In this document: positions 6,852-40,733 of the stretch, piece after piece | Numbering within the stretch: position 1 is the stretch's first letter | Layout of the letters: each line of letters begins with the position of its first letter | From: Verrucomicrobiota bacterium | GTDB lineage: Bacteria > Verrucomicrobiota > Verrucomicrobiia > Verrucomicrobiales > Akkermansiaceae | Length of the DNA stretch: 53,835 nt | Reading direction: 5' to 3' | Assembly (NCBI GenBank): GCA_004294095.1 | Contig: RDZR01000038.1 | Location: 1 to 53,835 of the forward strand | The notes under the pieces: model-generated | Databases searched by the model: none | Told to the model about the DNA's origin: nothing | Seen by the model: only the letters and a program-made list of their open reading frames with translations | Position numbers and translations under genes: made by a program

Positions 6852-9800
6852 TTATGGGAAAGGCACTAGAACGCTGGTCGGCACGATTTGGGCAGGTTCG
6901 CTGCCAGCTCCGCTTGCAGGAGTTCTCCAGCCGGCAGAAAGGTGATTGCCGCCGGCACCTTGCTTATGCAAAACCTCGATGTAGTAGGTTTGACCGGCGG
7001 TGAGGGTTATGACTCCAGGGGCTCCTCCATTGAAGGTAAAGCTGTTATTGCTCGAGCGTTGCGTGGTTTCTTTGTTCCACTCATCCACATTCGTCCAATT
7101 ACTCACCTGAGCAACCATCACACGTCCCGCTGGGTTCGATGTCGGCGAGATCCAAAACTGTGAGGCATCGTCACTGCTGACCCAGAAGACATAATTGCCA
7201 GTGGCCGGAGCTGTTAGAATCGCGCGCAATCTTTGTCCATAATTATCTCCCCAGTCTGATGAGACCGCTGGATTGCTCCAATTTGTAGCTCGAAGGCGTG
7301 GCAGGATGTCTGATCCAGTCGGGTTGGCAGGGAAATTCGGATTGCTGGTGAGATCACTGATGGATCCGCCACCTATACCCGTCCAGTAGTCTCGGCGAAC
7401 TCCAGTGGGATTTGGGCCTTGCACAAAGTTTACGGTAATGGTGAGTGTTTCCGTATCGCTGGCAGCTGCATTCGTGGCAGTGAGGTTCACCACATAGACC
7501 CCGTCCAGAGTCGGTGTGCCACTGATCAAGCCCGTCGTCGTATTAACGCTTAGGCCAGGTGGTAGTGGGCTGGCAGAGAAACTAGAAACAAATTGGGTTG
7601 CCGTGATTTGATAGTTGAAGGCAGAGCCTATATTTACCGTAGCCGTAGTGGGACTATTGATCACTGGTGGCAATAAACTAACGGTGATGGTGAGCTGAGT
7701 ATTGACCGTGCCTGCTGCGTTGGTGGCACCTATCGTTACCACAAAGGTGCCAGACGTTGTCGGATTTCCACTAAGTATGCCTGTCGCGGCATTGATCGAA
7801 ATTCCGGGTGGTAATCCTACGGCGGTGTAAGACGTTGGATTGTCACTCGCAGCGATTGAGTAGCTGAATGGAGCACCTTGGTTGACGGTTGTTGCGATCG
7901 GGCTGATAATGATCGGGGCATTTTCAGCATTAGCTGCCACCAAGACGCGTGCAAACCGGCGAGGAATGAGTTGTGAATCACGGACTACCACGCGCTCTAG
8001 CAAAGTAGTTAATGAGGTCACGCCTGTCACTGCTGCGGAATTGGTGCTCCAGCCGAGCAAATCATTTGAGAATTGAACTTCGTAGCGTATTCCGGGTGAT
8101 TCAGAAGCCTTGCGACGGACATAGGTGACTACCAAGTATCCTTCCGAATCAATGGTGATCAGAGGAAGACCGGCGGAGCCTGTAGCGCTCATCACATCGA
8201 CATTGGGCTGATTCACGTTGCCACGCTGGCCAGTGCCCGATCCAATCATGTTGAACGCATATTTCAGCAGGTTTGCTACCCCGTCCCCAGCTGGAGCTGC
8301 TGTGTCTGCGGAACCATCTGAGGCAATGGATTGGCTTGCGCGGAAGGCTGCGAGAGCCGCATTGTTATCTGGCGCAGCTGGCGATGAGCCATCGAGTTGC
8401 TGGAGGTAGGCGATCAAGTTGTTTTGATCCGTAGTCGATAGTGCGCGCACCTTGCGATGAGGATTCGCCTTGGCTAGGTCATTATTTGTCGAGACTGTCA
8501 TGTCATCGATGGCGATTGCGTCCATCGTGCTCGAGACCACAATCGTGTTTGAATTACCGGGATTGAGAGTGAAGCCCTCTAATCGGCCACTTCTCATCCA
8601 TGTATTGGTTTGCCAACCCGGTTGTTCACCCTGCAAGGCTAAAGGAAAGGGAGTTCCATTGACGGTGACTGTGATGCTTTTGCCCGGTGCACATGAGAAG
8701 CGGAAGTCCAAGGCACCTTGTCCAGCGGCAGTTCCGCCACGAATGTTGTTGAAGGTCACAGAGCCGGCTCCGTTAAATTGAACTAGGCCGTTTTTGTGCA
8801 CGGAGTTGGTAAAGTTGATGTTGATGAAGCCCGGCCGCTCAGTTGCGCCAGCAAGCACGCCATCTTCCATTTGATAGACTTCTCCACCGGCAACCTGAAA
8901 AACCTCGGCAAGAACGTCCGCTGAGCCATCGTGGAAGTAGGGTGCGGTCGCATGAATGCCAAGCAGTGTTGGCGTATCAATTCCCGCCAAATAATCTCCC
9001 AAGCGGCCTCCCGAGCTGGTGCGCATCGTGCCGACGTTTTCCAAACGCGGCACCACTCCAAAGCCGCCGCGTGAATTGCTGTAATTTGCTCCGCCATGGC
9101 AATCGGTGCAGCTTTGTGACTCGAACACCGCTTTGCCAGCAATAGCAGCCGCCGTCATGCTGCCATCCGCATTGCGGAATGGACTTTTAGGCAAGGTGTC
9201 TCGATCAAGGCTTGCGACGTAGCTGGCCAATTGATCGAGCGCGGTGCTGAGGCCCGTTTTAGGAGTGCCGAGAGGTGATGAGACGGAGGCAGCATTGATG
9301 AGGCCGGTGCCACCAAAGTGAGCGCGGATGTCATTTTCAAAGTCTTGGATTTCATCAAAATTTCCCGACCAGTGCACATTTCCGTGAGCCATACCCGCAC
9401 GGCCACGAAGGTCGGTGGTATTGCGGAATCCCTCACCGCGTTGGGTGAAATCCCATGTCCGGCCATCGAAAGCGCCATCAAGGTGGCATGTGGCGCAAGA
9501 CATATAGGTATCTTTGCTCATTGCATCTTTATCAAGTGCGTCTTTAAGCGATGCATTGTAGAAGATCTGCTTGCCAGCGAGCACATTACTGCTCAAGCGC
9601 TCAGTCGTCGCCGTCGGAACTTTCACCGAGCTCGGCGTGCGGGCGCCACTGACGAGGAAATCGGTCACATTGTGCACGGAGACGTTGCGAGCCATGAAGT
9701 TATTGACGAAAATTTTGTTTGTTTCGATGTCCATGACAGCACCTTGGGGCGCAAGATCGGTGGGAAAGCGCCACTTGGTGGATTTGGTGTCTTGGGCGCG

Positions 9801-12512
9801 GAGAGCAATGTCATCAAAGACGGCGATTTCATTATTTCCCTGAAGTGTTACGAATGCATAGGTGCCTCGGGGTGAAAAGACGACAGAAGTAGGCGACTCG
9901 CTATTATCGACATCGATGCGATTGATCTGATCAAAATTTTCTTGGTTATCTGCGAGACGGATTCTGGCAATAGCCGCACGCACGGTGTTCTCAGTATTTT
10001 GCAAGCCGGTGAAAAACGTTCCATGCTCGTCATTCATCTTAGAGCAAGTAATCCAAGCCCATTGATTATCAGGCGAGATGGTGATCCCTGCGAGCTGATT
10101 CAAAATACCCCGTCCATTGGATGAAGTATCACCTGCAAAGTTGCGAACCAGCGGGATCGTGCGGGTGAGCGTGAGTGGTGTGGTGTTGGCAACATCCCAC
10201 ACGTCAGCACGGTTAAGAGCGGCGGTAAATCTTGTGACAAGCACCCTTGATGCATCGCCAGTGATGGCGATGGCGCGAGGGGTGGGACCAAGATTGATGC
10301 TGCCGGTTTCGGCACGGGTGGAAGTATTGTAGCGTTTTAATACTCCGCTCCCAAAAAGTGTGACAAATGCAACGCTGCGGTCAGGAGTCATCGCAACGCC
10401 GTAAGGAACGCTGCCGTAGCCAGTGGCGATCGATCCGACAAGCGCCCCAGCAGGGCTGATGACGGCGATGCGGTCTGCATCATGGCAAGTCACCCACGCA
10501 TTTCCTGCAGCATCGACGGCGACGTTTCTGGGATCGGCACTGGTGGCAATACCTAGCAGCGCACGTAGATCATATTCTGCAATTTTCGCATTCGTATCGG
10601 CGTTAAGGATCGTCACTGTGTCTGCATCCGGGTTCACGGTCCAAACTCGGCGGTTGGCCAAGGTTGGAGAATTATTGAGTGAGATGGTAGAGGAATTGGT
10701 AGGACGGGTGCCAACAATCGCGGGCGAGACGGTCACGACGAGGCTCTTAGTTACCGTCGAAGTCGATCCGCCGGGCTTGGTGTCTCGCACCTGCACTTTG
10801 GCGTTAAAATGGCCATTGCTTGTATATGCCCGAGTCGCGGTAGGGCTGGATGTCCAGCTAGTGGATGGAGAACTATCTCCGAAAATGAAGCGGTATTGCA
10901 ACGGGTCTCCTTCAGGATCTGAGGCGGTTGCACTTAGCGTGACCGTCGTTCCGACCGTCGTTGGTGAAGGTAAGGCCGTGAAATTTGAAAGCACTGGAGA
11001 GGCGTTTCCGCCGGCAACCGAAGCGCCCGTCGAGAAGGTAAAAGTATAAGGTTGCATGCCATTTCCGGCTGCATCCTTGATGCCGTTTGCAGGGAGCACC
11101 ACTTCATAGGTTTTATTCAGAGCGAGATATTGCTTGGGTGTGATGGTCAGCATATCGTCATGCGAGAAGCTGATCCAACAATCAATAGGTGTAGTGGTGC
11201 CAACCTCGCGCAAGATCACACTGATGCCATTGATGATGGTGGACGGCTCCAGTGTCTCGTGAATTAAAATGCTCACTGGAGCCCCCACTGGGAAGTTGGT
11301 CTGCCCGGGACGCGGCACATGATAGCCGACATACGGGCCAGTCGTATCCGGAGCTGCTTGGTGCGCCCAAACGCCGAGATTGTCAGATGGCCCGAAACTA
11401 TAGCCACCGGTGATCAGCAAATTACCAATTGGCATCATGTATTGACTGGTATCGATCGGACCTACAGCAGAGCCAGCCGGACGATTATCACCCACTTGAT
11501 CCAATTCTAGAACCGGAGTGAAAGTGGTCATATCGATCTTCATTCTCTGGGCAAAGATGAAGTTGTCCTGGCATTGCACATAGGAGACATTCTGATCGCC
11601 TCGGAGTGCTGGCGTGCCGGCAGTATTGATTGACCGAACATGTTTCAAATCAGTGGGATCGCTTATATCAATGATATCCACTTTTGCTGCACCTTGGTCT
11701 GATAAAACTATGTAATTCTCAAATAGCACTGCGATATATGCGCCGAACGTGCCTGTTAGTTTATCGAGCAAAATTGGGCGCTCGGCGGGTGTTTTGAAGA
11801 CAGGCGAGATGTCGTAGGCGAGAATTCCTAGCTTCGAGTCATCTGAGGTGATAAAGAGAAGGTTCCCGAGAAGGATTGAATTTCCAGTTACTCCATCTTC
11901 GGCAAGTGAGTTCCAAGCAAACAAATCAACCGATCTTGGTGGCCCGGAAACACTTGGCCGCGTGATTGTAGTTGGTGTCGGTGAGTTCATGCCTGCATAT
12001 TGAATCCAATGAAATGGAAGAATCCAAGGCCAGTATAGTATGTGGCCGCTATTCACTTGGTTATAAACATTAAAATCTGGGAGCGTCTCCGAAAAGCCAT
12101 TCACCCCGTCTGAAACACGTTTGATCGCCATGCCAAAGACCCCCCCGAGATAGGGGGGGACGGATGTGTGTCCGTGATTTCCATGATCTGTCATGCTGGG
12201 AATGCTATCGCCATTGGCCGCGCTGAGCCGGATCCCGAAGGTGGATGCATCGTTTTTATTGCTAAACGACCACACTTTGTTGTCCGCGCCGGTGACCATG
12301 TTGGTGTAAAACCAGCCGTTCATGTAGCCGATGTTGGTGATGCGATTTTGGGTATTGGGGCTACGATAAAGCAATTTCCCGGGGACTTGAGTCGTGTTGG
12401 GAAATCCTTGGATCACATTCGGAATTTGCGCCATCCCAGATTGGCTCATAAACAGAATGCCTGAAATCCCGAAAATCCAATTTTCTGTTAGCTTTTTGAT
12501 GAGGTTTTTCAT
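6852..12512 (-). CDS. Giant secreted mosaic protein: beta-propellers, PKD, di-haem cytochrome c, Ig-like and PA14 domains
   Basis: 1,886 residues, starting at 12512 with a Sec signal (MKNLIKKLTENWIFG... SGMAQ). Approximate domain order: LVIVD-like propeller 30-395; SbsA/Ig-like 400-492 (KTYEVVLPANGIKDAAGNGM); PKD 502-595; YVTN-type propeller 604-957; a di-haem cytochrome c segment with CATCH at 1006 and CTDCH at 1135, plus TAPYFHDGS as in the MauG/cytochrome c peroxidase family; a carbohydrate-binding-like sandwich 1237-1342; the LLKYAF module 1382-1529 shared with the protein at 1130-3379; two He_PIG Ig domains 1532-1694 (LPPGISINAATGILSG, LPPGLSVNTTTGLISG); and PA14 1702-1886. A cell-surface or periplasmic redox and binding role is inferred; the substrate is unknown. 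The gene carries no TGTTAGA heptamer, unlike most neighbours. Confidence 0.85.
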   Translation of the reverse strand: MKNLIKKLTENWIFGISGILFMSQSGMAQIPNVIQGFPNTTQVPGKLLYRSPNTQNRITNIGYMNGWFYTNMVTGADNKVWSFSNKNDASTFGIRLSAANGDSIPSMTDHGNHGHTSVPPYLGGVFGMAIKRVSDGVNGFSETLPDFNVYNQVNSGHILYWPWILPFHWIQYAGMNSPTPTTITRPSVSGPPRSVDLFAWNSLAEDGVTGNSILLGNLLFITSDDSKLGILAYDISPVFKTPAERPILLDKLTGTFGAYIAVLFENYIVLSDQGAAKVDIIDISDPTDLKHVRSINTAGTPALRGDQNVSYVQCQDNFIFAQRMKIDMTTFTPVLELDQVGDNRPAGSAVGPIDTSQYMMPIGNLLITGGYSFGPSDNLGVWAHQAAPDTTGPYVGYHVPRPGQTNFPVGAPVSILIHETLEPSTIINGISVILREVGTTTPIDCWISFSHDDMLTITPKQYLALNKTYEVVLPANGIKDAAGNGMQPYTFTFSTGASVAGGNASPVLSNFTALPSPTTVGTTVTLSATASDPEGDPLQYRFIFGDSSPSTSWTSSPTATRAYTSNGHFNAKVQVRDTKPGGSTSTVTKSLVVTVSPAIVGTRPTNSSTISLNNSPTLANRRVWTVNPDADTVTILNADTNAKIAEYDLRALLGIATSADPRNVAVDAAGNAWVTCHDADRIAVISPAGALVGSIATGYGSVPYGVAMTPDRSVAFVTLFGSGVLKRYNTSTRAETGSINLGPTPRAIAITGDASRVLVTRFTAALNRADVWDVANTTPLTLTRTIPLVRNFAGDTSSNGRGILNQLAGITISPDNQWAWITCSKMNDEHGTFFTGLQNTENTVRAAIARIRLADNQENFDQINRIDVDNSESPTSVVFSPRGTYAFVTLQGNNEIAVFDDIALRAQDTKSTKWRFPTDLAPQGAVMDIETNKIFVNNFMARNVSVHNVTDFLVSGARTPSSVKVPTATTERLSSNVLAGKQIFYNASLKDALDKDAMSKDTYMSCATCHLDGAFDGRTWDFTQRGEGFRNTTDLRGRAGMAHGNVHWSGNFDEIQDFENDIRAHFGGTGLINAASVSSPLGTPKTGLSTALDQLASYVASLDRDTLPKSPFRNADGSMTAAAIAGKAVFESQSCTDCHGGANYSNSRGGFGVVPRLENVGTMRTSSGGRLGDYLAGIDTPTLLGIHATAPYFHDGSADVLAEVFQVAGGEVYQMEDGVLAGATERPGFININFTNSVHKNGLVQFNGAGSVTFNNIRGGTAAGQGALDFRFSCAPGKSITVTVNGTPFPLALQGEQPGWQTNTWMRSGRLEGFTLNPGNSNTIVVSSTMDAIAIDDMTVSTNNDLAKANPHRKVRALSTTDQNNLIAYLQQLDGSSPAAPDNNAALAAFRASQSIASDGSADTAAPAGDGVANLLKYAFNMIGSGTGQRGNVNQPNVDVMSATGSAGLPLITIDSEGYLVVTYVRRKASESPGIRYEVQFSNDLLGWSTNSAAVTGVTSLTTLLERVVVRDSQLIPRRFARVLVAANAENAPIIISPIATTVNQGAPFSYSIAASDNPTSYTAVGLPPGISINAATGILSGNPTTSGTFVVTIGATNAAGTVNTQLTITVSLLPPVINSPTTATVNIGSAFNYQITATQFVSSFSASPLPPGLSVNTTTGLISGTPTLDGVYVVNLTATNAAASDTETLTITVNFVQGPNPTGVRRDYWTGIGGGSISDLTSNPNFPANPTGSDILPRLRATNWSNPAVSSDWGDNYGQRLRAILTAPATGNYVFWVSSDDASQFWISPTSNPAGRVMVAQVSNWTNVDEWNKETTQRSSNNSFTFNGGAPGVITLTAGQTYYIEVLHKQGAGGNHLSAGWRTPASGAGSEPAQIVPTSVLVPFP

Positions 12513-12728
12513 AAGATATTTATTACTTAGCAAACACCCAAACATCGCGTGGATTTTAAGGCAAGAAAAAAGAATGCCGCCGATTCATTTTACGAGCTTA
12601 AAATAGTTGACAAATTATTTATAATCATTTGATTTGCAGCAAGTTAATTGAAATAAAAATCCCATTCAACTTTTTGGGAAAATTGATTTTCATCTTGCAT
12701 CTTGCAGCCAAATGCATCGTCTAACTGA
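12513..12728. other. Divergent intergenic region, AT-rich
   Basis: 216 bases between the divergent large surface-protein gene and the YwaF-like gene. It is clearly more AT-rich than its surroundings and must hold promoters for both. A TTGACA (12607-12612) and a TATAAT (12620-12625) occur on the plus strand but are only 7 bases apart, so they are not a sigma-70 pair. I see no hairpin or riboswitch. Confidence 0.4.
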
Positions 12729-33815: not shown

Positions 33816-34649
33816 GTGAAAAAATCGCGCAAAGAACTTTGGATCACCCTGCCGAGTTTCGGTTGGCTGATGCTCTTTGTGTGCGTTCCCACGCTCATCG
33901 TCTTTGCGATTGCTTTTCGCACCACCGATCTTGCAGGAGGCATCGGAAAAGATTGGACGCTGGAGCAATTTCATTTTCTAACGGATAGAAGCACGCACAT
34001 TCTGCTCTGGCGCACGCTGTGGATCAGCGTCTTGGTCACCGTGATGTGCTTGGTTATTGCGCTGCCTTGCGCGTGGTTCATCGCCCGCGCAACGCCCCGC
34101 TGGCGGATGTTCATTCTTTTGCTGATTATTGTGCCGTTTTGGACGAACTTTTTGATTCGCGTTTTTGCTTGGAATCAAATTCTACACTCGGAAGGAGCAC
34201 TGGCTCGGGGACTCCGCGCAATCAATCTGTTAGGCGAAAATGACTCATTACTTTTCAATTCTGGAGCGGTCGTTTTGGTCAGTTTTTACAACTACTTGCC
34301 ATTTGCGATTTTACCCCTCTATGCGGCGGCGGAAAAATTTGATTTCAAATTGTTAGATGCGGCGCGGGATTTGGGCGCAGGTTCTTTGCGGGCCGTGCGC
34401 GATGTGTTTTTGCCCGGCATCCGGAAAGGCATCACCACCGCGGTGCTCATCGTTTTTATTCCGATGTTAGGCTCATACGTGGTGCCTGATTTGGTCGGCG
34501 GCACCGATGGACAAATGATCGGAAATAAAATTGCCCAACGGAATTTTTCGGATCGCAATCTACCTGCCGCCTCGGCGATGGCAGCGGTCTTGATGTTGTT
34601 TGTGCTGACTCCAATGATTTTGAAAGGCAAAGTCAGAGAGCGAGTTTAG
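33816..34649 (+). CDS. potB: PotB-type ABC transporter permease (spermidine/putrescine family)
   Basis: 277 residues with six predicted membrane helices. The EAA loop that contacts the ATPase is present (LLDAARDLGAGSLRAVRDVFLPGIRKGI). N- and C-terminal parts match PotB/binding-protein-dependent permeases (SFYNYLPFAILPLYAA, FIPMLGSYVVPDLVGG). The start is GTG at 33816 (or TTG at 33813). The usual partners PotA (ATPase), PotC (second permease) and PotD (binding protein) are not adjacent: fabV lies upstream and a convergent rhomboid gene downstream. Its 3' end overlaps the rhomboid gene by 17 bases. Confidence 0.85.
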   Translation: MKKSRKELWITLPSFGWLMLFVCVPTLIVFAIAFRTTDLAGGIGKDWTLEQFHFLTDRSTHILLWRTLWISVLVTVMCLVIALPCAWFIARATPRWRMFILLLIIVPFWTNFLIRVFAWNQILHSEGALARGLRAINLLGENDSLLFNSGAVVLVSFYNYLPFAILPLYAAAEKFDFKLLDAARDLGAGSLRAVRDVFLPGIRKGITTAVLIVFIPMLGSYVVPDLVGGTDGQMIGNKIAQRNFSDRNLPAASAMAAVLMLFVLTPMILKGKVRERV

Positions 34650-35499
34650 AAAATGGCTGCCTAACCGCAGCGACGACTAAGCCCAACACAAATCCACAAG
34701 CGAAGCCAAAGACGTGGCCGAGCACATCCACGCGGCCATCGAGTGCATTGCCTCCGAGCATCGCTAAAATCACCAAGCCACCTAACAGCGGCGCGATGCC
34801 ATGCATGATGGATTTTGGTTTACGCTTCACACGAAGAGTCACCAACGCATAGCCTGATAGAATTCCTAGCGCGGCAAACGAGGCCGTCGAAGCACCGATG
34901 GAAGAAAAATTTTCGCCACTTTTCGTGATGGCAGTCAGCGCATTTCCCGCACTGCCGGCGATGAGGATCATGGCCAAGCCGAGCCAGCGGCCAAATCCTT
35001 CCGCAACCCAATAGGCAAAGATCGATCCACTGAGCAGATTGCCTGACAAATGGCCAATATCGGCATGAAGTAGCAGGGCCGTCGCCACTCGCCACCACTC
35101 GCCATGCTCGACAATCGCACGGCTCGATGATGCGTATGATTCTAACACATTCGGCATTTGGTTTTGATAAACATAGCCAGTAACTAACAGAAAAATCCAT
35201 GCCAATGAGGCGTGCCAACATGCCCGCCGCGGGCTTATGTCATCCACAAAATCGCGCTCCGGCTGCCATTGCGTTTGTTCCTCAGCGAACGCGCGGAACT
35301 CATCGATGACGTCCGCGAAGTCCTTGGCATCGACGAATAATGATACTTGCTGAGTTTCTGGAAATTGCCGCAACCAACATGCCCGCCCCATGGCGAGCAC
35401 CACTAACTGATAGTCCCAAGCAATTTCCACTGACGGATAGATTCCAGCCACGGTCAACGCATCCCAATCGACATCTTCATTTTCTAAAGGATCACTCAT
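34633..35499 (-). CDS. Rhomboid-family intramembrane serine protease
   Basis: 288 residues: a cytoplasmic N-terminal domain of ~100 residues, then about six to seven membrane helices. The rhomboid signature HADIGHLSGNLL (HxxxHxxxN type) is followed by the nucleophile loop SIGASTASFAALG, with the catalytic Ser in GAS, and the partner His in VDVLGHVFGFACG. The usual GxSG is GAST here, which some active rhomboids tolerate. The substrate is unknown. The gene lies between a convergent permease gene and the GT51 gene, which is 15 bases upstream on the same strand and possibly co-transcribed. Confidence 0.88.
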   Translation of the reverse strand: MSDPLENEDVDWDALTVAGIYPSVEIAWDYQLVVLAMGRACWLRQFPETQQVSLFVDAKDFADVIDEFRAFAEEQTQWQPERDFVDDISPRRACWHASLAWIFLLVTGYVYQNQMPNVLESYASSSRAIVEHGEWWRVATALLLHADIGHLSGNLLSGSIFAYWVAEGFGRWLGLAMILIAGSAGNALTAITKSGENFSSIGASTASFAALGILSGYALVTLRVKRKPKSIMHGIAPLLGGLVILAMLGGNALDGRVDVLGHVFGFACGFVLGLVVAAVRQPFSKLAL

Positions 35500-35514: not shown

Positions 35515-37224
35515 CTATTGCTTGCCGAGCCGAGTGACAAATTCGTCTAACAAAGAATTGAGCCGCTTCTCTTTGGCGATCGCTCGCGGTTGATCAAAGC
35601 CAATCCACACCGCTGTGGCACCACTGGGCCCGAGGCGCATCATCCACGCATCTCGCTCCGAGCCGGTTGCTCCTACAAAGTTGCGAGTGCTATTGCTGCT
35701 TTTGAGCACGCTCAGCGCTTCATCCGCCGCTTGGGATGAGAGCGCGGCATTCAAAAATGGCTTCATCTGATAGATTTTTTCACCCGCTGCGTTGCGAATT
35801 TCACGAATAAAAATCGGCTCCGGACGTTTGCCGCGATTTCCCAAAGTCGCCAAACCGATGGACATCTCTAACGGAGTCGCCGCCACGGATCCGCGGAAAA
35901 GATCTTCTGTTTTTAAAAACGGTCCATCAAAGCCGCAACGTTTCGCGATGCGCTCAACTTCCGCCGGACCGATTTGCCTGCCCGTCTGCATCGGCCGCCC
36001 AGGCAGCACCAATTTCCCCCGCTCCGCTGCGGCGGCGGCGACGAATGGCTCGAAGGCTGAGCCGAGATCGCGGCTAGAGCGAGTGCGATCAAAACGGGAG
36101 TGGCGGAAATCGCGGCCACCGATGAGCGCGAGCACCTCACCGGTCGTTGTTTTGGTCGTCACCGCAGCGTATTGCAAATAGGTTGGCTCGCTGTTAGATG
36201 TGTGTTCCGCAATCGATGTATGCTGCCAGCTTGTTTCACTTTCCAATGCTTCGACGGCATGAGTCAGCTCTTGCTCCACACGGGTTTGCCAGCCCATGTC
36301 CAAAGTGGTGTAAACTTTCAGCCCGCTGATGGCGGATCCGTCAAGCTCAAGCCAGCGATCCAGTGCGCGGCGCACTGCTTGCATGGCATAAGACGTTTGA
36401 TTCGATTCGGTGCTGTCTGCAGCTAAATGAACTGGCTCGTTGGCAATGCGATCACTCTCAGCGCGATCGATCGCTTTCATCGCCACCAAGCGATTGAGCG
36501 TCTGCCGCCGCTGCTCCAGTGCGGCGGGCAAATTCCGCAATGGCGAAAAAATATGCGGACCACGAATGATTCCGACAATCAACGCGCACTCCCCTTTGGA
36601 AAGCTCGCGAGTGCTTTTCCCAAAATACGTTTGCGCCGCTTGCTCGATACCGTCCGCACCCGCGCCGAAGTAAATGCGGTTGAGGTAATTTGTTAGAATT
36701 TCATCCTTGGTGTAGTGCGCTTCTAACCGAAGTGTCAGCGCGATTTCCAAAAATTTTCGATGCAACGATTTTTGCTTCATTTTGAAACAATTTCTCGCCA
36801 GTTGCATGCTCAACGTCGAGGCACCTTGGGTGAAACTGCGGTCTTTGAGATTGCGCACCGTCGCCCTCGCCAACCCGCGGACATCGACTCCGCCATGCTC
36901 AAAAAAACGGGCATCCTCTCGCGCTCGCAGCGATAAAACCAAAAAATCGGGAATATCTTCGCGTTTGACCAACTTGCGCGAAGCTGCGCCGCTCACTTCG
37001 ATTTCTTGCCCGTGGCGATCGAAATACTGGGTGCCGGCGGGTAGTTTTTTGACTTCCGCCATGTCAAACTGCCGCGCCAGCATGAAGTAATATAACACAC
37101 CACAAGCAATGACGATGGTGCCGAAAATGCCGCACAAAAAACCCAATTTCATGATCCCATGCGTCCATGTTGGCAAGCAGCGCTGCCATAAAGGTTCAGG
37201 AGCAATCGGACGCCAAGTGGACAT
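35515..37224 (-). CDS. GT51 peptidoglycan glycosyltransferase with degenerate transpeptidase domain (PBP1-like)
   Basis: 569 residues. There is one N-terminal membrane helix (IMKLGFLCGIFGTIVIACGVLYYFM). An intact GT51 domain follows: REDARFFEHGGVD with the catalytic Glu, GASTLSMQLARN, and LTNYLNRIYFGAGADGIEQAA. The second half aligns with a class A PBP transpeptidase, but the key motifs are lost: the SxxK position reads SAFE (Ser389, Glu392), the KTG box reads ATG (Ala519-Thr-Gly in GATGSERDAW), and no SxN is recognisable. It should polymerise glycan from lipid II but not cross-link it. It is also shorter than classic PBP1a proteins. Confidence 0.88.
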   Translation of the reverse strand: MSTWRPIAPEPLWQRCLPTWTHGIMKLGFLCGIFGTIVIACGVLYYFMLARQFDMAEVKKLPAGTQYFDRHGQEIEVSGAASRKLVKREDIPDFLVLSLRAREDARFFEHGGVDVRGLARATVRNLKDRSFTQGASTLSMQLARNCFKMKQKSLHRKFLEIALTLRLEAHYTKDEILTNYLNRIYFGAGADGIEQAAQTYFGKSTRELSKGECALIVGIIRGPHIFSPLRNLPAALEQRRQTLNRLVAMKAIDRAESDRIANEPVHLAADSTESNQTSYAMQAVRRALDRWLELDGSAISGLKVYTTLDMGWQTRVEQELTHAVEALESETSWQHTSIAEHTSNSEPTYLQYAAVTTKTTTGEVLALIGGRDFRHSRFDRTRSSRDLGSAFEPFVAAAAAERGKLVLPGRPMQTGRQIGPAEVERIAKRCGFDGPFLKTEDLFRGSVAATPLEMSIGLATLGNRGKRPEPIFIREIRNAAGEKIYQMKPFLNAALSSQAADEALSVLKSSNSTRNFVGATGSERDAWMMRLGPSGATAVWIGFDQPRAIAKEKRLNSLLDEFVTRLGKQ

Positions 37225-37917: not shown

Positions 37918-40626
37918 CTACAACTGCACCAGGCTACGGGCAGTTTGCAGCGTATCAATTTCCGCGAGTGTTTTATCATGGCGGACGCACTTGATCCGCG
38001 GAAATCGCAACGCCAGACCAGAATCGTGGCGTTTGGATGCGCGGATGGAATCAAACGCCACTTCGATGATCACTTCTAGAACCACTTCGCACTTGCGTCG
38101 CTCTTTCCTGAGCGTGATTTTTTTGAAATGTTCTGTTAGAGTTTCTAACTCTTCATCCGTGAGTCCGGTGTAGGCCTTGCCGAGCGTGAGAAGCTTTCCA
38201 CTTGGTTCATCACGCACGGCAAATGTGTAATCGGAAAGCACCTCGGCACGCTTGCCATGACCTTGCTCAACGTGTGTCACCACGCAATCGAGCGTGGGCA
38301 TCACGCCTTTGAGTTTGATCCATGATTTCCCGCGCTTTCCTGGGCTGTAAAAACTGTTAGGGTCTTTCGCAATGAGTCCTTCATGCCGATTTTGCAGGGC
38401 GGTTTTGAAAAAACCTTCAATCGCATTCACATCGGCAGTCCGGTAGCATGGGATGGCTTCTAACATTTTTGGGAAATCTATCTGAGTGAGTCGCTGCCGC
38501 CGTTCGTGCAATGGTTGATCTAACAAATTTAGTTGTTGGTGCCACAGTAAATCAAAGGCGATCAAGCGCAGCGGGATTGAAGAAGTGGAATCGTCTGATG
38601 TTAGAAAGAGGTCGCTTTCCACCATTTTTCGGCCGAGGCGTTTTTGTAAATCCGCGAAGCCGAGTTTGCGTCCCTGCGCGTAAGCAATCAACTCGCCGTC
38701 GCAGATGAAATCATCATCCACGCTGAGAGCCGCCGTGATGATTTCCGGAAATTCATGATCCAAGCGGCGTAAATCACGGGAAAAAAGCGCAGCCTGCTTG
38801 CCGACTTTATGCAGTTGCACGCGGATGCCGTCATACTTCGGCTCTAGCCAATAAGGTGGCTCAAACGGCAGGCTCTCAAACATCGGCAATTGATCATCCT
38901 CATCGCGCTCGAGTGGCGAAGCGAGCATCGGACGGATTGGCACCAACGGCCGCAGTGAAGCGGATTCCAACGTGCCATGGCGGGCAAAAACCGCCGTTTC
39001 GCCAAGATCGCCTGTGAGCATGTGCGCCCGTCTCACCAATCCAACATCGCTGGAAAAAGCGTCTGCGATGGCGTCTTCCACCAAACTCGCCTTCAGACCG
39101 ATGCGCAAATCTCCGGTGATCAAGCGCACGATCGTCTCACTTTCCGCTGGGTGCAGCTGTTCAAAACGCGTGCTTAGAAGCGCCATGCGTTGATTGAAAC
39201 TGTTAGAATCAAGCAAGGATTGAAAGAATGCCTGGCATTCTAACAGACTGATAGATTGAGCTTGCAAGTGCAGTTCTTGCAGCAACAAGCGGGCGGTGCG
39301 AGCCATGTCATTTTGTGCGAGGGAAATTTCCCGATATCGTTCTTCACGAGCGCCGCGCACTGCCAACAATGCTTGCCGGATTTGTGCCGAGCCCACTCGC
39401 AAAGCACGATGGCCAGATGCTCGGCTAAAAATTTCTCCGCCCAACCAACGTGCGGCGATGCCAAGAGTTTCGTTATTCTCTAACTGTTTGAAATAGTTGG
39501 CTAGGTAATCGATTTTTGCCAAACGGCTATTGGTCTCTGCAATCAAGCGGCACAAGTCACTGAGATCCGCCAAGCCACAGATCGGGCGCTGATGCCGCGG
39601 AGCAAGTTTGGCGGCAGTGCTCGCAGCTTTAGTTTGCGGAAAAAGCTTAAAATCTAACTGATCCGTTCCATTGACGGACCACGCATCGATCCCACGAAAT
39701 CTCAGATCCGCAGCAAATTCCTTGGTGTAGCCGTGGATAGTTAGCACTCGCTGCGGGTGCACCCGTTGCACACAATCTAACAGCGAAGGGTAATCCGCAT
39801 GATCAGAAAGCGGAAAGCATTCATCCACTTGATAGCGGAACTTCGCACCGGGTTGCAGCGCCCAGCCGGTCAGCATCGCCGTCCGTTTTTGGCGTAAATT
39901 GCGAATCGCCCGGGAGCGCACGGCATTCGGTGGCGCGATGAGCACATGGCCAGCCGGCACATGTGCGGCAAACGTTTCACTATCTGATAGAATATCGAGT
40001 CCCGCATCGCGACACGCTGTGGACATGGCGGCTACCGTGGGATGAAGCATCACCGGAATGCCGTGCTCAGCAAACAACGCTTGAGCTTCTTGAGCCTTAC
40101 CCAAGGCGTAGCCAAAGAACACAGGCGTATCGCCATCGGCCAGCGCATCTTCGACAAAGCGTAGCATCTTTGACTCAATTTCCATGGCTGGAGGAAAGAC
40201 CCATTGCGGCAAGCCAAAGGTCGTCTCCATCACCAATTGATCCGCGCGCAGCAGACTGATCGCCTCGCTCGTTTTGCCTTTGCGCATTTTGAAATCGCCG
40301 GTGTAAAGCAGCGTCGCTTGATCCTGCAAACGAGTGACGTGAAGCATGGCAGAGCCGAAAATATGGCCTGCGGGCAACATTCTAAGACGAAAGCCGCGCA
40401 CTTCGATTGTTTCATGAAATGGCATCGGCCGCATTTTGCCACTGCCCATCCGGAACCTTTTTTCTAACAAATATGCAGTGATTTCAGAACAACACACGGC
40501 ATCGTGCCTCGCAAAATGATCGGCATGTGCGTGCGAGATAAAGGCCCATGGTTTTGCGTCCCAAGGGTCAAGCCACAGGTCGAGCTCCGGCAGATGCAAG
40601 CCGCGGTTAAATCGAATTTCAATCAC
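37918..40626 (-). CDS. Fusion of metallo-beta-lactamase DNA exonuclease and ATP-dependent DNA ligase
   Basis: 902 residues from a GTG at 40626 (VIEIRFNRGLHLPELDLWLDP); an ATG at 40689 is the alternative. The first ~340 residues are a beta-CASP/MBL nuclease (SHAHADH at ~28-34, GHIFGSAML, TGDFKMRKG, FPLSDHADY), matching the ligase-associated exonuclease family. The rest is an ATP-dependent DNA ligase with an N-terminal helical domain, the nucleotidyl Lys in EPKYDGIRVQ (~594), EGLIAKDPNSFYSPGKRGKSWIKLK, and an OB-fold end. In many bacteria these are two adjacent genes that often accompany an Lhr helicase; here they are one chain, and no helicase gene is adjacent. A DNA repair role is inferred. 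Confidence 0.88.
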   Translation of the reverse strand: MIEIRFNRGLHLPELDLWLDPWDAKPWAFISHAHADHFARHDAVCCSEITAYLLEKRFRMGSGKMRPMPFHETIEVRGFRLRMLPAGHIFGSAMLHVTRLQDQATLLYTGDFKMRKGKTSEAISLLRADQLVMETTFGLPQWVFPPAMEIESKMLRFVEDALADGDTPVFFGYALGKAQEAQALFAEHGIPVMLHPTVAAMSTACRDAGLDILSDSETFAAHVPAGHVLIAPPNAVRSRAIRNLRQKRTAMLTGWALQPGAKFRYQVDECFPLSDHADYPSLLDCVQRVHPQRVLTIHGYTKEFAADLRFRGIDAWSVNGTDQLDFKLFPQTKAASTAAKLAPRHQRPICGLADLSDLCRLIAETNSRLAKIDYLANYFKQLENNETLGIAARWLGGEIFSRASGHRALRVGSAQIRQALLAVRGAREERYREISLAQNDMARTARLLLQELHLQAQSISLLECQAFFQSLLDSNSFNQRMALLSTRFEQLHPAESETIVRLITGDLRIGLKASLVEDAIADAFSSDVGLVRRAHMLTGDLGETAVFARHGTLESASLRPLVPIRPMLASPLERDEDDQLPMFESLPFEPPYWLEPKYDGIRVQLHKVGKQAALFSRDLRRLDHEFPEIITAALSVDDDFICDGELIAYAQGRKLGFADLQKRLGRKMVESDLFLTSDDSTSSIPLRLIAFDLLWHQQLNLLDQPLHERRQRLTQIDFPKMLEAIPCYRTADVNAIEGFFKTALQNRHEGLIAKDPNSFYSPGKRGKSWIKLKGVMPTLDCVVTHVEQGHGKRAEVLSDYTFAVRDEPSGKLLTLGKAYTGLTDEELETLTEHFKKITLRKERRKCEVVLEVIIEVAFDSIRASKRHDSGLALRFPRIKCVRHDKTLAEIDTLQTARSLVQL

Positions 40627-40733
40627 GCCACGAATCGATCCTTTCTGATGGTTGAGAATTTTCCAACTCTCAATTATCAGGCCGATCACTCTGCTTTACC
40701 TTTGGTGAAATTTGGCTAGGTTGGTTTTTATCG

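Follow-up and report, generated by a model that had tools for sequence, protein, structure and literature searches.

A class A penicillin-binding protein of the Akkermansiaceae with a degenerate transpeptidase half

Class A penicillin-binding proteins (PBPs) are the textbook bifunctional synthases of the cell wall and the classic targets of penicillin. In PBP1a and PBP1b, a glycosyltransferase (GT) domain (PF00912) is combined with a transpeptidase (TP) domain (PF00905), whereas the monofunctional glycosyltransferases (MGT/MtgA; TIGR02070) polymerise without cross-linking. A TP-dead class A PBP has been described in Escherichia coli, where, according to excerpts of the study, PBP1b S510A still serves glycan elongation together with YcbB (PMC5089857). 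For Akkermansia and its relatives, excerpts of the published work class Akkermansia among the bacteria that have retained class A PBPs (PMC8406291), name class B PBPs in an essential-gene study of Verrucomicrobium spinosum (PMC12283558), and describe, in a review, the peptidoglycan of A. muciniphila as type A1gamma with extensive de-N-acetylation (PMC11382707). In the open-licence literature we found no report of a naturally occurring class A PBP of this group whose TP domain is dead; this is weak evidence of absence.

The window, the whole stretch of 53,835 nucleotides of an Akkermansiaceae genome that was analysed, encodes a protein (P0001) whose closest PDB sequences in a phmmer search were PBP1a and PBP1b. 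Its gene has the following features:

35515..37224, minus strand: whole gene of P0001, class A PBP-like, with GT51 and a dead TP domain, 569 amino acids (open frame, Pfam)
37072..37170, minus strand: presumed membrane anchor, residues 19-51, a long hydrophobic-type helix (helix 19-51 in the structural model)
36490..36999, minus strand: GT51 glycosyltransferase domain, residues 76-245 (PF00912, found at the same place in the genome profile search)
36916..36918, minus strand: codon of Glu103, GT motif 1 (Glu in 141/141 homologs and 31/31 intact partners)
36745..36747, minus strand: codon of Glu160, GT motif 3 (Glu in 141/141 homologs and 31/31 intact partners)
35518..36189, minus strand: pseudo-transpeptidase domain, about residues 346-569 (alignment, model pLDDT, PBP fold matches)
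36049..36060, minus strand: SxxK position, Ser389-Ala-Phe-Glu392 (alignment, codons read)
35989..35994, minus strand: deletion site at about residues 411/412, lacking the SxN segment seen in intact relatives; gap placement approximate (alignments)
35671..35679, minus strand: KTG position, Phe516-Val517-Gly518 (alignments)
34633..35499, minus strand: rhomboid-domain gene directly downstream of the P0001 gene (PF01694, 1.1e-17)

The frame at 35515-37224 is continuous over 569 amino acids, with neither a stop nor a frameshift. Residues 76-245 were identified as a GT51 domain by PF00912 (E=2.6e-54; 183.8 bits against a curated cut-off of 27). The first-pass annotation had described the GT51 motifs as intact, and both Glu103, which we take to be the first GT catalytic glutamate (motif 1), and Glu160, presumably the second conserved GT glutamate (motif 3), were found in P0001 and in all of the 141 aligned homologs. 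Residues 19-51 are presumed from the sequence to form a membrane helix. The TP profile PF00905 scored only 25.7 bits (cut-off 22.1), with its best match at residues 445-504. P0001 stayed below the curated cut-offs of both the PBP1A family TIGR02074 (329 against 508.75 bits) and the monofunctional glycosyltransferase family TIGR02070 (119.7 against 182.65 bits). The Rfam search of the window gave no match.

P0001 shares the membrane helix, the GT51 glutamates, the TP fold, and the domain order with the bifunctional class A PBPs; it differs from them in lacking the SxxK lysine, SxN, and KTG, in having about 57 fewer TP residues, and in its score below the TIGR02074 cut-off. Polymerisation without cross-linking, as predicted for P0001, would be common to it and MGT/MtgA; unlike them, it carries an extra 220-residue domain, a pseudo-TP predicted to be folded. 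PBP1b S510A is likewise a TP-dead class A PBP, but it is a laboratory point mutant, whereas P0001 belongs to a natural conserved family.

The losses in the TP half were read from codons and alignments. At the SxxK position, Ser389 is kept and the lysine is replaced by Glu392, so that the reading SAFE of the first-pass annotation holds, as does its statement that SxN is absent: alignment with intact class A PBPs indicated that about 57 TP residues including SxN are missing. That annotation had also assigned KTG to an ATG at Ala519. The loss of the lysine was borne out; the residue assignment was not, as the column of the KTG lysine, anchored on the following DAW (MAFFT, and phmmer against PDB 3udf), is occupied by Phe516 of the segment F516-V517-G518, and ATG lies three residues later. 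Its further claim that the domain keeps close to the usual spacing had to be dropped. The distance from Ser389 to the Ala519 column is 130 residues in P0001, from which the SxN stretch is deleted, and the intact class A PBPs of the family (31 distinct proteins in 32 rows, one row being a duplicate) have an equivalent span of 185-192 residues. In the intact class A PBP of its own genome (C97), the span is 187 residues, and SxxK, SxN, and KTG are all present in the intact type.

To follow these substitutions through the relatives, 141 rows were aligned, comprising the window protein, two sets of 69 and 60 homologs (one genome contributing two copies), ten loci of the genus g3, and one contig outside the family. 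The GT glutamates were kept in 141 of 141, the SxxK lysine and the KTG lysine were each found in none (five of the proteins being truncated at KTG), and the SxN columns were gapped throughout; no other lysine occupied the SxxK position, where such a residue would have spoken against the first-pass reading. The same losses in every aligned homolog argue that they are not a matter of chance. In all of 31 intact partners, the GT glutamates, SxxK, SxN, and KTG were present together.

The short protein was found across the Akkermansiaceae, two relatives carrying it at 72% and 67% identity to P0001. Among 195 genomes searched in the family, 129 (hand count) had a match of at least 300 bits, a threshold above the longer class A PBPs of the family listing, which score about 283 or less; the protein of all 129 was aligned, two of them by way of the loci L009 and L010, which look equivalent. 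None of the 40 g3 genomes among the 195 had a match of at least 300 bits, because the copy of this genus is divergent. A profile search of the order recovered a version of 602-641 amino acids in 14 of 22 g3 genomes, with matches only to longer PBPs in the other eight, and thus the short gene can be lost, or diverge past detection, in this genus. The ten aligned g3 loci were about 31-33% identical to P0001, and in the nine copies that were read the serine of SxxK was replaced as well and the lysine was absent. In one g3 copy tested (from G119; the copies are L131-L137 and L139-L141), the Pfam profile recognised GT51 only and the pseudo-TP half was invisible to it.

Beyond the family, a search of 288 genomes of the phylum at E<=1e-22 gave 23 genomes with a match, all in the family of the window and none outside; this threshold is harsh, as the short protein of G063 (L133), found at E 3.6e-22 in the order search, escaped it, and divergent members may exist elsewhere. 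Among the 112 genomes of the order search, 80 of which belong to other families by our count, there was one strong match in another family (L138, G236:C500), which was 62.5% identical to P0001 over 489 residues. Its gene sits at one end of a contig of 9.6 kb in a genome that is 77% complete, and a misplaced contig is more likely than an occurrence outside the Akkermansiaceae.

In 42 of 69 loci, the gene directly upstream of the short one, on the same strand and no more than about 450 bases away, encoded an intact class A PBP; in one further locus, the intact PBP gene lay 1.6 kb upstream. In the remaining 27 loci, which include the 1.6-kb case, it was not adjacent within the stretch examined, some stretches being short. 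Of 30 pairs measured, 28 had a gap of about 14-203 bases between the two genes, and the other two had gaps of 435 and 1641 bases (median 53); the start codons were taken from the alignment, and gaps on the minus strand are overstated by three bases. From the tandem order and the short gaps, co-transcription of the two genes is likely where they are adjacent. In the genome of the window, the intact partner is not adjacent and lies on another contig (C97, against C81 for the short gene). A conserved shared neighbourhood including the rhomboid, deformylase, ligase, and other genes was rejected, as none of the nine window neighbours searched for recurred beside homologs in the 69 loci; many of these loci extend no further than about 1.5 kb from the gene, and remoter shared neighbours could be missed.

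A midpoint-rooted tree of the GT domain (73 rows) grouped the short proteins in one clade (100/99), placed beside all of the intact orthologs of the order (97/88), and the nearest group to this clade was that of the intact class A PBP orthologs. The duplication that separated the short and intact genes may thus predate the family and have been followed by losses elsewhere; alternatively, faster evolution may have pulled the short clade down in the tree. A duplication within the family is not favoured by this placement, which is itself subject to the midpoint root and to possible rate effects.

The structure of P0001 was modelled with AlphaFold2 from a 70-row alignment (mean pLDDT 87; mostly 88-97 from residue 351 on). 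The model superposed on PonA1 (5crf_B) with an rmsd of 2.5 over 271 residues (278-569) and a Z score of 27.9. For the G119 homolog (L139; mean pLDDT 86), the corresponding values on 5crf_A were an rmsd of 3.2 over 289 residues and Z 24.5. The pseudo-TP half is therefore predicted to keep the PBP transpeptidase fold, with Z scores of up to 27.9 for TP-only chains. Superposition of both domains on E. coli PBP1b (3fwl) was loose (rmsd 13.1 over 495 residues, Z 31.4), which indicates that the domains are set differently. The L139 model has a long C-terminal helix (residues 538-578).

The reading that we prefer, with a probability of roughly 0.6, is that P0001 is a dedicated glycan polymerase in which the TP fold now has a non-catalytic part as scaffold or regulator, probably in concert with the intact PBP. 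It would be a membrane-anchored GT51 peptidoglycan glycosyltransferase descended from a bifunctional class A PBP, which most likely still polymerises lipid II and should be unable to cross-link; covalent penicillin binding would not be expected. The pseudo-TP half, having kept the PBP fold and lost the SxN segment lining the active site, may serve as a non-catalytic scaffold or an allosteric module, and the glycan made by P0001 would probably be cross-linked by a partner, the intact class A PBP whose gene lies immediately upstream in many relatives. This explanation is based on the GT residues, the loss of three motifs, the predicted fold, purifying selection, and the tandem order, and has a precedent in PBP1b S510A of E. 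coli (PMC5089857). Several observations speak against it: the partner gene is not adjacent in the genome of the window or in 27 of the 69 loci, the pseudo-TP half is less conserved than the GT domain and the TP domain of the intact partner, its dN/dS exceeds that of the N-terminal half in four of 13 pairs, and no short version was seen in eight of 22 g3 genomes. The proposal of the first-pass annotation, a non-catalytic pseudo-domain with cross-linking left to another PBP, is in its core well supported by the losses in 141 of 141 homologs, the selection on the domain, the modelled TP fold, and the intact class A PBP elsewhere in the genome; its premise of usual spacing and its KTG residue were revised as above.

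Selection was examined in 13 pairs of short genes that are not mutually independent (Nei-Gojobori, own script): three came from g3, and the others were the ten closest among 351 further pairs. The dN/dS of the dead half ranged from 0.024 to 0.152. It was below that of the N-terminal half in nine of the 13 pairs and above it in four (the three g3 pairs and, slightly, L024/L026). Purifying selection acts on the pseudo-TP half throughout the Akkermansia family, and the retention of this half under selection suggests that it has been put to a non-catalytic use. In 135 near-complete proteins, nine residues of this half (D386, R402, P411, T414, R416, R429, D441, L442, and R444) were 82-94% conserved, and at these positions the intact partner shows either a different residue or no predominant one, although P411-R416 adjoin the gap and their pairing with the intact partner depends on its placement. 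A further-reaching proposal, which we offer tentatively, is that the TP domain has been neofunctionalised by removal of its SxN side and the gain of new conserved charged residues; it could then be a regulatory subunit, either docking on or switching the intact PBP or else acting as a sensor of nascent peptidoglycan, and the Akkermansiaceae would possess a specialised polymerase pair, with two of three class A PBPs having no classical cross-linking activity.

Alternatively, the pseudo-TP half could be an inert relic that stabilises or orients the GT domain, with neither partner nor regulation, in an effectively monofunctional glycosyltransferase. The overall conservation of 0.55 for the pseudo-TP half, against 0.70 for the GT domain and 0.70 for the TP domain of the intact partner, is what a relic might show, and so are the many substitutions of the nucleophile, which is serine in only 48 of 141 homologs. 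We nevertheless consider this rather unlikely: selection on the dead half was as strong as or stronger than that on the N-terminal half in nine of 13 pairs, its conserved charged residues are not found in the intact paralog, and the domain was dropped by none of the 136 untruncated homologs.

Another route would leave the intact PBP aside, with P0001 as a beta-lactam-blind polymerase feeding L,D-transpeptidases, so that YkuD enzymes cross-link its glycan. Eleven YkuD matches in the genome of the window and nine in G119 are compatible with this route, for which excerpts of the E. coli work on PBP1b S510A and YcbB supply a precedent (PMC5089857). Comparable numbers, however, occurred in two genomes of other families in which the order search did not find the short protein (G201, 17; G199, 8), and the tandem order points to the intact PBP; we regard this route as improbable. 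A link to L,D-transpeptidases was rejected, as the six genomes examined showed no correspondence between the YkuD number and the presence of the short protein. The 11 and nine matches are many for genomes of 3.0 Mb (G000, that of the window) and 2.7 Mb (G119).

It is very improbable that the TP half is still catalytic through other residues. Ser389 has counterparts in 48 of 141 homologs and new polar residues are conserved, yet the nucleophile column otherwise reads P in 34, T in 16, A in 14, D in 12, E in 11, and others in six, SxN is gone from all 141, and the only Ser, Thr, Cys, or Lys among the pseudo-TP columns conserved to at least 80% is T414 (93%). A pseudogene, frameshift, assembly error, or recent decay, which the motif changes alone could have suggested and for which no other support was found, has a negligible probability and was ruled out by the open frames, the same losses in 141 homologs, and the low dN/dS, in agreement with the first-pass statement that no frameshift is needed.

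The preferred reading of P0001 as a polymerase with a non-catalytic TP fold can be set beside the other class A PBPs of the genome. The third of these (C1:7452-9881; L008, L081) reads TALF at SxxK, SKI at SxN, and KGG at KTG. Among 50 aligned family proteins of this type, all have threonine for serine, no SxxK lysine, and S-K-[I/V/L] at SxN, and 48 keep K-x-G at KTG. Of six similar proteins from elsewhere in the order, outside the family, five also lack the lysine; the exception, L146, has TAFK, and both L146 and L147 are placed apart from the main group in the GT tree. Like P0001, L008 combines GT51 with a TP half lacking the SxxK lysine; unlike P0001, its TP half is of full length and it has a separate place in the GT tree. 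Proteins of the L008 type have either a dead TP domain or an unusual chemistry. One of the three class A PBPs in the genome of the window has intact TP motifs, and in G119 SxxK and KTG, the two motifs read there, were found in one of three. Gene counts by PF00912 and PF00905 thus overstate the cross-linking capacity.

The bacterial family studied here, of which the gut commensal Akkermansia muciniphila is apparently a member, has retained a class A PBP whose TP half is dead but selected, often in tandem with a live one. It offers a natural system for asking what non-catalytic roles a TP domain can have, and whether paired PBPs split polymerising from cross-linking.

Two other genes of the window were also noted. 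At 37918-40689 (minus strand), an ATP-dependent DNA ligase with all three Pfam parts is fused to an N-terminal half that resembles a metallo-beta-lactamase-type nuclease (RMMBL, 21.3 bits; cut-off 21.6). At 6852-12545 (minus strand), a protein of 1897 amino acids has Ig-like, PKD, and PA14 matches together with weak cytochrome c-like (RoxA/MauG) matches.
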